Assembly: GCF_005960665.1 (NCBI RefSeq)
Contig: NZ_CP040676.1
Span: 2,295,001 to 2,359,000 of the forward strand
Length of the DNA stretch: 64,000 nucleotides
Source: Exiguobacterium mexicanum
Lineage (GTDB): Bacteria; Bacillota; Bacilli; Exiguobacteriales; Exiguobacteriaceae
Reading direction: 5' to 3'
Shown: piece by piece, positions 15,612 to 54,507 of the stretch
How the letters are laid out: each line of letters starts with the position of its first letter
Position numbering within the stretch: the first letter of the stretch is position 1
Notes under the pieces: generated by a model
The model's input: the letters and a program-made list of their open reading frames with translations, nothing else
Database searches by the model: none
Told to the model about the DNA's origin: nothing
Program-made: the position numbers and the translations under genes

Positions 15612-16067
15612 TTAGATGAAGAGGTTCAAGTTGCCGCCTTCAGCCGCCCCGAGGTATGCTGCCACACCACCGAGATCGATGCCGTCGATCAACTCTTCTT
15701 CTTTGATTCCCATGACGTCCATCGACATCGTACAAGCGACCATTTTGACGCCTGCTTCTTGAGCCGATTTGATCATTTCGTCAAGTGATGGCACATTTTT
15801 GTCGCTCATCACTTTTTTCATCATCTTTTGACCAACTCCACCGAAGTTCATGTTCGAGAGTGGAAGTTCACCCGCATGCGATGGCATCATCATGCCGAAC
15901 ATCTTCTCGAGACCTTGTTTCTTCACTTCCGGTGCATCTGGCTTACGAATGACGTTGAGTCCCCAGAATGTGAAGAACATCGTCACGTCTTTGCCCATCG
16001 CCGCCGCACCTTGGGCGATGATGAACGAAGCGAGCGCGCGGTCGAGATCTCCGCTGAAGACGACCAT
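15612..16067 (-). CDS. DsrE/DsrF/DrsH-like sulfur-relay domain protein, split from the upstream gene by a stop codon
   Basis: 151 residues covering a whole DsrE-like fold (VVFSGDLDRALASFIIAQGAA, then FFTFWGLNVIRK, and the conserved cysteine in MVACTMSMDVMG). Such domains carry persulfide sulfur between proteins. The gene starts ten codons after, and in the same frame as, the TAA that ends the upstream oxidoreductase. The ten-codon gap reads AGAPATDGAS, a linker-like sequence, and I see no ribosome site close to the ATG. In many Bacillales and related bacteria these parts are fused. It may be expressed by reinitiation or readthrough, be silent, or reflect a sequencing error. Confidence 0.75.
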   Translation of the reverse strand: MVVFSGDLDRALASFIIAQGAAAMGKDVTMFFTFWGLNVIRKPDAPEVKKQGLEKMFGMMMPSHAGELPLSNMNFGGVGQKMMKKVMSDKNVPSLDEMIKSAQEAGVKMVACTMSMDVMGIKEEELIDGIDLGGVAAYLGAAEGGNLNLFI

Positions 16068-16097
16068 CGATGCGCCGTCTGTCGCTGGTGCCCCTGC

Positions 16098-18080
16098 TTA
16101 TACAGCCGCAGGACCATTACCTTTTTGAAGAATTGCTTCCACGCGACCATTCACGAACTGTTTCGAGACGAGCTTGTTGCCGGTTTTCTTAGCCCATGCT
16201 TCGATGTCTGCAAAGAAACCAGGGTCACTCGCGAGGACACGAAGCGTCTCGCCTTCACCGAGCTCGGCTACTTTTTTATTTACTTCTAAAATTGGTCCCG
16301 GGCATTGCAGACCGCATGTATCTAGGAAAATCGGTTCCCCGACTGGTTCATTTGTCATTGCTGGCGGTGCCTCCTCCGTTACTGTTGCGGCAGTCTCACT
16401 CTCTGCCTTCGTGCCTGCCTCAATGGCATCAAAATCACGTTTTACTTGTGACCATGTTTTGTAGCCACCGCTCAAGTTTTTCACCTTGAAGCCGTTTTGA
16501 CGCAAGATACGGGATGCGAGATATCCGCGAAGCCCGACTTGGCACGTCACATAAATCGTTTCGTCTTTGCTGTAGTTGTCCAAATGATCGCGTAGCGAGT
16601 TGAGCGGAATGTTGATTGAACCAGGAATTTTGCCAAGTTCATGTTCTGACTCGTCACGGACGTCGAGCAATGTCGCGCCGTTTTGGACCAACTCGTCAAT
16701 CTCATTCCAGTGCACGACTTCGTTATCGCCGAGGACGACGTTCGACGCGACGTAACCGATCATGTTGACTGGATCTTTCGCTGAGCTGAACGGTGGTGCG
16801 TAGCTGAGTTCAAGGTCTGGAAGGTCAAGGACCGTCAAGCCACCTTTCATCGCTGTCGCAATCACATCGATCCGTTTATCGACGCCGTTCATCCCCACGC
16901 CTTGCGCGCCGTAGATTTCACCTGTCGTCGGATGGAACAAGAGTTTGAGTGATACCGGTGTCGACCCTGGGTAATAACCCGCATGTGAACCCGGGTGCAC
17001 GTGAACGGCTTCGAATTCTTTACCAGCTGCTGTTAAACGTTTTTCGTTCCAACCTGTCGAAGCAACTGTCATATCGAATACTTTGGCGATCCCAGTCCCC
17101 ATCGTTCCGTTGTATTTAACGTCACGACCGTTGATGATATCGGCGACAAGACGGCCTTGGCGGTTGGCCGGCCATGCAAGCGGAACGACCGTCGGCTCTT
17201 GGAAGACATAATCGAGTACTTCAACAGCATCTCCGATCGCGTAAATGTTCGGGTCTGACGTGAGCATCTTCTCGTTGACGCGGATGGCGCCGCGGATGCC
17301 TGTTTCAAGTCCTGCTTCCGTTGCGATTGACGATTCTGGCACGACGCCGATTGACAAGACGACCATATCGGTATCGATGACGCGACCGCTCTTCAAGTGG
17401 ACACGTTTCCCTTTCTCAGAGAACGAATCGACACCGTCAGAAAGCTGAAGGTCGACGCCATGGAGACGCATGTGTTCGTGAACAGGTGATACCATCTCAC
17501 GATCGAGCGGTGTCATAACTTGGTCGGCCATCTCGACGAGCGTGACCTCGACGCCGCGCTCACGTAAGTTTTCAGCCATTTCGATCCCGATGAAACCACC
17601 ACCGATGACTGTCGCGTGTTTCGGTGCTTTGTCGTCAACGTAGCTGCGGATTTTATCCGTATCCGGAATGTTGCGGAGCGTGAAGATGTCTTCTGCTTCT
17701 TCAATTCCAGGGATGTTCGGACGAATTGGTTTCGCTCCTGGTGACAAGACGAGTACATCGTACGACTCATCGTATGTTTCGCCCGTCTTAACGTTTTTCA
17801 CCGATACCGTCTTCTCGGCACGGTTGATTTTTGTCACTTCCGTCAAGTTGCGGATGTCGAGTTGGAAACGTTTATTCATGCCCTCGACCGTTTGGACGAG
17901 CAATTTTTGACGATCTTGAATCACGTCACCAATGTAATATGGAAGACCACAGTTCGCGAACGAAATGTATTCGCCCCGGTCGAACATGACGATTTGGTTC
18001 TCTTCGTTTAAGCGACGAAGGCGTGCGGCTGCTGAAGCGCCACCGGCGACTCCACCGACGATTACGATTTTTTTACTCAT
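16098..18080 (-). CDS. CoA-disulfide/persulfide reductase with rhodanese and TusA domains
   Basis: 660 residues in three parts. Residues 1-450 are a CoA-disulfide reductase-type flavoprotein: FAD motif GGVAGGASAAARLRRL, active cysteine Cys44 (FANCGLPYYI), NAD motif VIGGGFIGIEMAENL, and a dimerisation domain. Residues 455-545 are a rhodanese with Cys513 (TCQVGLRGY). Residues 583-655 are TusA-like with the CPGP motif (Cys593). The enzyme likely reduces CoA persulfide or disulfide and hands sulfane sulfur between domains. It overlaps the upstream rhodanese gene by 4 bases and ends at a TAA in frame with the DsrE gene. Control by the divergent CstR-like repressor is expected. Confidence 0.9.
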   Translation of the reverse strand: MSKKIVIVGGVAGGASAAARLRRLNEENQIVMFDRGEYISFANCGLPYYIGDVIQDRQKLLVQTVEGMNKRFQLDIRNLTEVTKINRAEKTVSVKNVKTGETYDESYDVLVLSPGAKPIRPNIPGIEEAEDIFTLRNIPDTDKIRSYVDDKAPKHATVIGGGFIGIEMAENLRERGVEVTLVEMADQVMTPLDREMVSPVHEHMRLHGVDLQLSDGVDSFSEKGKRVHLKSGRVIDTDMVVLSIGVVPESSIATEAGLETGIRGAIRVNEKMLTSDPNIYAIGDAVEVLDYVFQEPTVVPLAWPANRQGRLVADIINGRDVKYNGTMGTGIAKVFDMTVASTGWNEKRLTAAGKEFEAVHVHPGSHAGYYPGSTPVSLKLLFHPTTGEIYGAQGVGMNGVDKRIDVIATAMKGGLTVLDLPDLELSYAPPFSSAKDPVNMIGYVASNVVLGDNEVVHWNEIDELVQNGATLLDVRDESEHELGKIPGSINIPLNSLRDHLDNYSKDETIYVTCQVGLRGYLASRILRQNGFKVKNLSGGYKTWSQVKRDFDAIEAGTKAESETAATVTEEAPPAMTNEPVGEPIFLDTCGLQCPGPILEVNKKVAELGEGETLRVLASDPGFFADIEAWAKKTGNKLVSKQFVNGRVEAILQKGNGPAAV

Positions 18081-18382
18081 TGCTCATTTCCTCCTTTGAC
18101 GACTTCACCAGGCCAGCTCATCAAGCCATCTTCTATATTGATCACTTTATAACCTTTCGCTTCCATTTGCCAAGTTGCTTGCGTGCTGCGAGCACCTGAA
18201 CGGCAGAGAACGATGTATTCTTCTTCAGGGTCGAGTGTCTCGATCCATTCCGAAATTTCAGATAGCGGATAATTGCTCGCGCCAGCAATGTGCGCTTCTT
18301 GGAACTCGTCACGTTCACGAACGTCGACGATGTGCACTGGTACTTCAAAATCCATTTGACGTTTTAAAGCAGATGCTTTCAT
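18077..18382 (-). CDS. Single-domain rhodanese
   Basis: 101-residue rhodanese with active-site Cys60 in the loop CRSGARS, the six-residue loop of thiosulfate- or persulfide-type sulfurtransferases, and the typical HIVDVRERDEFQEAHIAGA at the front. No signal peptide, so it is cytoplasmic. The ATG at 18380-18382 is preceded at about 11 bases by AAAAGGA. It is the first gene of the operon behind the CstR-type promoter and overlaps the multidomain reductase. Confidence 0.9.
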   Translation of the reverse strand: MKASALKRQMDFEVPVHIVDVRERDEFQEAHIAGASNYPLSEISEWIETLDPEEEYIVLCRSGARSTQATWQMEAKGYKVINIEDGLMSWPGEVVKGGNEQ

Positions 18383-18494
18383 GTTATTTACCCATCCTTT
18401 TAATCTACGATGTTTCACTTATTTATTCGTCACCTTGGTAGCGGGCGTCCGACGAAAGTTTGTGATTCATTGAACATATCGCTTCCACGTCATT

Positions 18495-18610: not shown

Positions 18611-18667
18611 GAGACTACACAATAAATAGTTGGGTTATTGAACGATTTGAATATAGAGGTGAATCTA

Positions 18668-18934
18668 ATGGAACAGTATCAATACGATGCGAAAGTATTG
18701 AACCGGATGAAACGAGTCGAAGGACAAATCCGGGCCATCATCCGTATGATGGAAGAAGGGAAAGAGTGCCGCGACGTCGTGACGCAGTTGAGCGCGGCTC
18801 GTTCGGCACTCGACCGTGCTTCGACCATCATCGTCGCGAAGAACTTGGAGCAGTGCATCATCACCGCCCAAGAAGATGGCGAAGATACGTCAGAAACCGT
18901 CGAAGAAGCCATCAAAATGTTGATGAAACGCTAG
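18668..18934 (+). CDS. cstR: CsoR/CstR-family repressor, probably persulfide-sensing
   Basis: 88-residue DUF156-family repressor. RVEGQIRAI marks the family. Cys34 and Cys63 are 29 residues apart, the spacing of the two sulfur-sensing cysteines in CstR, and the histidine ligand of copper-sensing CsoR is not evident at the expected site, favouring a per- or polysulfide sensor. It is divergent from the rhodanese and CoA-disulfide reductase genes, which are classic CstR targets. The ATG at 18668 follows AGAGGTGA; an ATG ten codons upstream lacks a site. Confidence 0.85.
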   Translation: MEQYQYDAKVLNRMKRVEGQIRAIIRMMEEGKECRDVVTQLSAARSALDRASTIIVAKNLEQCIITAQEDGEDTSETVEEAIKMLMKR

Positions 18935-52873: not shown

Positions 52874-53562
52874 CCGTCATGTCTCCGCCATTTGTACCCG
52901 TGCCCCCACAGTGTCTCGATATAAGCCGGGTGGCTCGGATCATCTTCAATTTTTTGACGGAGACGACGAATGTTGACGTCGACCGTCTTTCTGTCCCCGA
53001 AGTAATTGATGCCCCAAACGGCATCTAACAGCGCATCACGTGATAAGACGACTTCCTCGTTTTGGACGAGGTGACAAATCAAATCGTATTCGGTCGGGGT
53101 CAAATCAATCGACTGCCCATACTTCGTCACTTGCTTCGCTGCCAAGTCGATGGCGAACGGTCCGGATTTCAATCGCTTCTTCTCTTTTCGTTTCACTTTC
53201 TCGACACGTCGGAGGAGTGCTTGAATCCGCGCCACGAGTTCGCCGGGACTGAACGGCTTGGCGATGTAGTCGTCCGCCCCACGGCCGAGTCCTTCGATTT
53301 TATCTTCTTCGAGTGTTCGCGCCGTCAGCATGATAATGCCGACATTCTCATCTAAATCACGGATGGCCGCACATGCCTCAAAACCGTCCATCTCTGGCAT
53401 CATCACATCCAATAACACGACATCGAACGGTTCACGATCAAACGCCGTGACCGCCTCGCGTCCGTTCGTCGCCTCAAAGACGTCGAATCCGGCCCGCTTT
53501 AAATTAACGATGATAAAGCTGCGAATCGCATGCTCATCTTCGGCTACTAATATTCGATTCAT
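52870..53562 (-). CDS. OmpR/PhoB-family response regulator
   Basis: 230 residues. Receiver domain with acidic pocket (VAEDEH), phospho-Asp in VVLLDVMMPEMDG and Lys in YIAKPF; a C-terminal winged helix (YLTPTEYDLICHLVQNEEV-like, then VDVNIRRLRQKIEDDP) binds DNA. The kinase gene follows with a 4-base overlap. I choose the second of two adjacent ATGs (53560-53562) because the ribosome site AGGTGG lies at better spacing. Confidence 0.92.
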   Translation of the reverse strand: MNRILVAEDEHAIRSFIIVNLKRAGFDVFEATNGREAVTAFDREPFDVVLLDVMMPEMDGFEACAAIRDLDENVGIIMLTARTLEEDKIEGLGRGADDYIAKPFSPGELVARIQALLRRVEKVKRKEKKRLKSGPFAIDLAAKQVTKYGQSIDLTPTEYDLICHLVQNEEVVLSRDALLDAVWGINYFGDRKTVDVNIRRLRQKIEDDPSHPAYIETLWGHGYKWRRHDG

Positions 53563-53664
53563 CATTCCACCTCTTCTGAAATTCACTACTTCTTAATAGT
53601 TACGTTTTTGCGACAAGGTTGTCAATTGACCTCAAATCGTATTAGGATGGAGTCATTAGATTCT

Positions 53665-53679
53665 GAAGGAGGACTCCTT
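53665..53679 (+). promoter_or_regulatory. Ribosome binding site inside a small hairpin
   Basis: AAGGA pairs with TCCTT around GGAC, so the AAGGAGG of the HAD gene is sequestered in a tight stem-loop. It lies about 13 bases before the ATG. Confidence 0.4.
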
Positions 53680-53685
53680 ACCATT

Positions 53686-54507
53686 ATGAGTTACAAGATG
53701 ATTGTTTTAGATATGGACGATACGCTCCTCACGAGCGATCACACGATTTCCGCCAAAACGAAAGCTGCCTTGCTGGATGTACAAGAACGCGGACATAAAG
53801 TCGTGCTCGCGAGCGGACGTCCGACGTACGCGATGTGGGACGCAGCTCGAGAGCTCGAGCTCGCCAAATACGGTAGCTATATTCTCTCATTTAACGGTGC
53901 CTCAATCATCAACTGTGAGACAAATGAAGAAATCTTCTCAAGTACATTGCTTCCAGAGACGGTCGCCCATCTCCATGATATCAGTGTCCGGGAAGAAATC
54001 GCGATTCATACGTACATCGGTAACGAAATCGTAACCGATCAACCGAACCCGTATACCGATATCGAAGGTGAATTGACAGGGATGCCGGTCATCCATGTCG
54101 ACGACTTCAAAGAAGCGGTCACGACGCCTGTCGTCAAGTGTCTCATGCTCGGTGATGGCGACACGCTTGCCCCGATTGAAACGAAACTGCAAGTCGAACT
54201 CGAAGGCAAACTCGCCGTCGCCCGTTCGAAACCGTTCTTCCTCGAATTTACGGAAGCGGGTGTGACGAAAGGGACGAGCCTCGCCTTCTTGGCCGAGCAC
54301 GTCGGCATCGAGCAAGCCCACGTCATCGCTTGCGGAGACGGGAACAACGACTTGACGATGATTGAATGGGCTGGGCTTGGGGTCGCAATGGGCAACGCCA
54401 ACACGACGGTCAAAGGCAAAGCCGACTTCATCACGAAATCAAACAATGAAGACGGGATCGCGCACGTTATCGAAACGTTCATGGGAACTGTCCTCGTCGA
54501 TCGATAA
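53686..54507 (+). CDS. Cof-type HAD-IIB sugar-phosphatase-like hydrolase
   Basis: 273 residues. Catalytic Asp of motif I is in LDMDDTLLTSD, motif II SGRPTYAMWD, Lys in VTKGTSLAFL, and motif IV GDGNNDLTMIEWAG. A C2B cap sits between. Cof-type members dephosphorylate sugar phosphates, nucleotides or vitamins. The ATG is spaced 13 bases from AAGGAGG, which lies in a hairpin. It precedes the anchored hydrolase gene on the same strand by 36 bases. Confidence 0.88.
   Translation: MSYKMIVLDMDDTLLTSDHTISAKTKAALLDVQERGHKVVLASGRPTYAMWDAARELELAKYGSYILSFNGASIINCETNEEIFSSTLLPETVAHLHDISVREEIAIHTYIGNEIVTDQPNPYTDIEGELTGMPVIHVDDFKEAVTTPVVKCLMLGDGDTLAPIETKLQVELEGKLAVARSKPFFLEFTEAGVTKGTSLAFLAEHVGIEQAHVIACGDGNNDLTMIEWAGLGVAMGNANTTVKGKADFITKSNNEDGIAHVIETFMGTVLVDR

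Follow-up and report, generated by a model that had tools for sequence, protein, structure and literature searches.

An in-frame stop codon between the TusA and DsrE2 domains of a CoA-disulfide reductase fusion gene in Exiguobacterium mexicanum

The window, that is the whole stretch of 64,000 nucleotides analysed (positions 2,295,001 to 2,359,000 of contig NZ_CP040676.1 of Exiguobacterium mexicanum), contains a gene for a sulfur-transfer protein that is interrupted by a single in-frame stop codon. The features of the locus are:

16098..18080, minus strand: CoA-disulfide (persulfide) reductase (CoADR) + rhodanese + TusA, 660 aa, with its own Shine-Dalgarno site (AAAGGAGG)
16098..16100, minus strand: in-frame TAA, codon 661; CAA/CAG in 16 close relatives and a sense codon in 37/37 other family genomes
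16068..16097, minus strand: ten linker codons, AGAPATDGAS, which are the TusA-to-DsrE2 joint in relatives
15612..16067, minus strand: DsrE2-like domain (PF13686), 151 aa, intact; first ATG without a ribosome site
18077..18418, minus strand: single-domain rhodanese gene of the same operon, with a 4-nt overlap with the reductase start
18638..18934, plus strand: divergent CsoR/CstR-type repressor (PF02583), the likely operon regulator

The 660-codon frame starts at 18080 and ends with the C-terminus NGPAAV, followed by the TAA at 16100-16098 on the minus strand. Past the TAA the same frame continues through AGAPATDGAS (16097-16068) to an ATG at 16067 and then for 151 aa to a TAA at 15614-15612, and both coordinates and translation agree here with the preliminary description, which had noticed the stop and the resumption of the frame. 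The Pfam domains found before the stop were Pyr_redox_2, Rhodanese and TusA, and after the stop DrsE_2 (PF13686, E 7e-65). Within the 660-aa protein the CoA-disulfide reductase spans residues 1 to about 445, the rhodanese 460-545 and TusA 585-653. The four domains CoADR, rhodanese, TusA and DsrE2 thus lie in the order of the fusion family and in one frame apart from the TAA; the uninterrupted polypeptide that characterizes the family is missing from the window gene due to the TAA at 16098-16100, which is present in this genome only. The split gene is the sole instance in its genome.

The four-domain architecture itself is already known. The protein Pcar_0429 of Pelobacter carbinolicus, suggested to be a possible terminal sulfur reductase (PMC3543383), has the same order of CoA-disulfide reductase, rhodanese, TusA and DsrE as the window gene, and BF638R_0572 of Bacteroides fragilis, which has been linked to thiol balance (PMC6158253), has the same order at nearly the same positions (its TusA at 589-657 and DsrE at 671-825). 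Both are single uninterrupted polypeptides, whereas the window copy has a TAA between TusA and DsrE. Residues 2-548 of the window protein are homologous to CoADR-rhodanese structures (3ICR, E 1e-243; 8A56, E 2e-178); in contrast to the window protein, the 3ICR/3ICS/3ICT enzyme and the Enterococcus faecalis CoAPR (PDB 8A56) stop after the rhodanese and have neither TusA nor DsrE2. CstR, a sensor of persulfides, governs the operon that encodes the E. faecalis enzyme (PMC9405070), and the CsoR/CstR-type repressor of the window is a plausible persulfide-sensing regulator of the rhodanese-CoADR operon. The same sulfur-relay domains are found in stand-alone rhd-tusA-dsrE2 sets (PMC4175335; the yrk cluster of B. 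licheniformis, PMC9918477) and in CstA of Staphylococcus aureus, but there each has a gene of its own or the fusion lacks the reductase.

To establish the state of the gene in other genomes, relatives were searched with the TusA-linker-DsrE2 stretch in which the TAA was read as a residue. One unbroken frame of 822-843 codons was found in 18/18 other species genomes of the genus, and the frame was open across the stop position in 19/19 genomes of the sister genus, so that all 37/37 other species genomes of the Exiguobacteriaceae carry a single uninterrupted frame here. The genome collection yielded 80 loci, with Bacillus, Neobacillus, Anoxybacillus, Paenibacillus and a large number of Clostridia among them, and not one had a stop between TusA and DsrE; a pattern scan of viral contigs gave no further copies of the junction. 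When 16 close relatives were aligned by codon, the stop position held CAA, or CAG in two, and always encoded Gln; in the comparison across the genus it was CCG in one species. The stop at codon 661 was the only residue of the window protein that was absent from all close relatives in the 822-codon alignment. Because every relative has one open frame across this point and the window genome alone has a stop there, the fused state of CoADR-rhodanese-TusA-DsrE2 is ancestral, and its reading as one protein is strongly supported. For the same reason, i.e. that all relatives have one ORF, chance can be excluded as the cause of an open, homologous frame on either side of the stop. The earlier proposal that the two parts belong to one fused protein was thereby confirmed, and the comparison with homologues, which had been named beforehand as the test, showed fusion across this point rather than separate genes with their own ribosome sites.

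One locus with an interrupted domain pair was seen among the 80. In Terrilactibacillus laevilacticus (L070, around 2140) a stop lies inside the DsrE2 of the same fused gene, and this is also an interruption in a single genome.

As judged from the alignments, the split corresponds to a single C-to-T change, one transition away from CAA, in this genome only; the stop is one substitution from the sense codon of the relatives and is confined to one lineage. Unlike in the stand-alone sets, in Exiguobacterium the fusion is ancestral and the separation a single point mutation. The gene normally encodes a four-domain persulfide-handling protein, made as one polypeptide throughout the Exiguobacteriaceae and in many other Firmicutes, and here a C-to-T transition would have changed a Gln codon between TusA and DsrE2 to TAA. 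Since the TAA is located in the linker, the main product would be the 660-residue reductase-rhodanese-TusA protein, and DsrE2 would either be lost or be made separately, at low level, as a 151-residue protein by reinitiation. If the base is real, the truncated protein should still reduce CoA persulfide while the output of DsrE2 falls; in what may be a persulfide-clearing operon, the truncation would remove or free the last relay domain. A real, strain-specific nonsense split is the best explanation of these data, with a probability of roughly two thirds. This weight, and the lower one given to an error in the sequence, are matters of judgement. The existence of solved two-domain CoADR-rhodanese enzymes, known CoA-persulfide reductases that lack TusA and DsrE2 (PDB 3ICR, 8A56), counts in favor of a nonsense split.

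Elsewhere in the same genome, outside the window (G000:C4, about 2428500-2429300), a thiF/moeB-like gene has suffered a deletion and carries two in-frame stops; it lies beside a truncated moaC, and moaA is absent. Molybdenum-cofactor synthesis has decayed in this strain, and the changes in these three genes, which are real gene decay, were counted as favoring a real nonsense mutation. A link of the split to the decayed molybdenum-cofactor genes was rejected, as 11 other members of the genus without moaA above the cut-off keep the fused frame.

The main alternative, unlikely but deserving weight, is a sequencing or assembly error, in which case the strain would have kept the Gln codon of its ancestors and would make the 822-residue protein in full. 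A single-base difference in one assembly looks like a base error, and the stop is the sole unique residue in a protein that is otherwise like that of the relatives, with DsrE2 under unbroken purifying selection. Several observations argue against it. The chromosome was assembled as one contig of 2.6 Mb and genome completeness is 99.8%. When some 166 kb of coding sequence was aligned with the relative G007, no real gene was frameshifted, which favors a clean assembly. No stop other than the TAA cleanly interrupted a gene that was intact apart from it, the other broken gene being the thiF/moeB-like one; a seeming frameshift at window positions 53330-54504 proved to be a chance ORF over an intergenic 2-nt indel. 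A systematic base error at GTAC was rejected, as C-to-T differences were not in excess in this context (GTAC to GTAT 22 one way and 30 the other). The position of the stop is also informative: 28 codons of the gene are one transition away from a stop and only 1/28 is located in the linker. Since it is this one codon that was hit, both domains are spared by the split, and a randomly placed error would probably have fallen elsewhere than at the one place that leaves both parts whole.

The condition of DsrE2 was judged by comparison with two near relatives. Over the linker and DsrE2 (161 codons) there were 16 codon differences to L029 and 8 to G007, all of which were synonymous (0 nonsynonymous). 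DsrE2 has therefore not decayed and gives no sign of lost function, which counts against the nonsense reading. Its intactness is compatible with a stop of very recent origin, with continued production of DsrE2 and equally with a wrong base, and does not separate these three possibilities.

Within the reading of the stop as a real mutation, a sub-case is that the split is functional, forming a two-gene unit in which termination-reinitiation at the 16067 ATG supplies DsrE2, which acts in trans with TusA. This is compatible with the Met that lies exactly at the start of the DsrE2 domain and is found in all homologues of the genus, with a DsrE2 that is intact and unchanged in protein sequence, and with the separate rhd-tusA-dsrE2 genes of other bacteria (PMC4175335), including Bacillus licheniformis (PMC9918477). 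The start codon is less favorable. The anti-SD duplex energy was -2.0 kcal/mol at the DsrE2 ATG compared to -11.6 at the CoADR ATG, and the median over the 37 long ORFs in the window was -7.8 kcal/mol, with just 1/37 as weak as the DsrE2 ATG; internal ATGs of genes had a median of -2.5 kcal/mol. These values bear out the initial impression that this ATG has no ribosome site. Furthermore, the stop-to-start gap is 30 nt, and in native E. coli gene pairs coupling was reduced by 40-80% at 14 nt and nearly abolished at 38 nt (PMC10666635). There is no consensus yet on how far ribosomes scan once they have terminated (PMC12548453). Reinitiation at 16067, 30 nt away and without a Shine-Dalgarno site, is thus possible but probably weak, and so young a two-gene state would be indistinguishable from plain loss of the domain. 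We regard a functional split as improbable, and it is more doubtful still that the locus represents a first step of gene fission in a persulfide relay, with the stop being real and free DsrE2 being produced by reinitiation at an ATG that lies 30 nt further on and has no ribosome site.

Programmed readthrough or suppression of the stop, giving full-length protein in a set ratio, would fit the open, conserved frame that flanks the stop, but it is very hard to credit and a built-in signal was excluded because the stop is not conserved, being found at this place in 0/37 other family genomes. The RNA around the stop folded no better than shuffled sequences (z -0.5), and a scan of approximately 2.37 Mb (about 90% of the genome, including the tRNA cluster near 2.07 Mb) turned up no tRNA whose anticodon reads a stop, a partial check for a suppressor tRNA as the anticodon set recovered was incomplete (22 types). 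Among the options offered in the preliminary description, nonsense splitting of the gene stands as the best reading, a sequencing error is the less likely one, and programmed readthrough fails because the stop is not conserved.

In conclusion, the TAA is no readthrough signal built into the gene but an ordinary nonsense mutation confined to this strain, unless it reflects a sequencing error. Annotation should describe the locus as a CoADR-rhodanese-TusA-DsrE2 gene with an interrupted frame, and neither as two normal genes nor as a recoding site, and beyond annotation the finding is of little importance. A real stop would make the strain a naturally truncated case from which the contribution of DsrE2 to a CoA-persulfide reductase could be learned.
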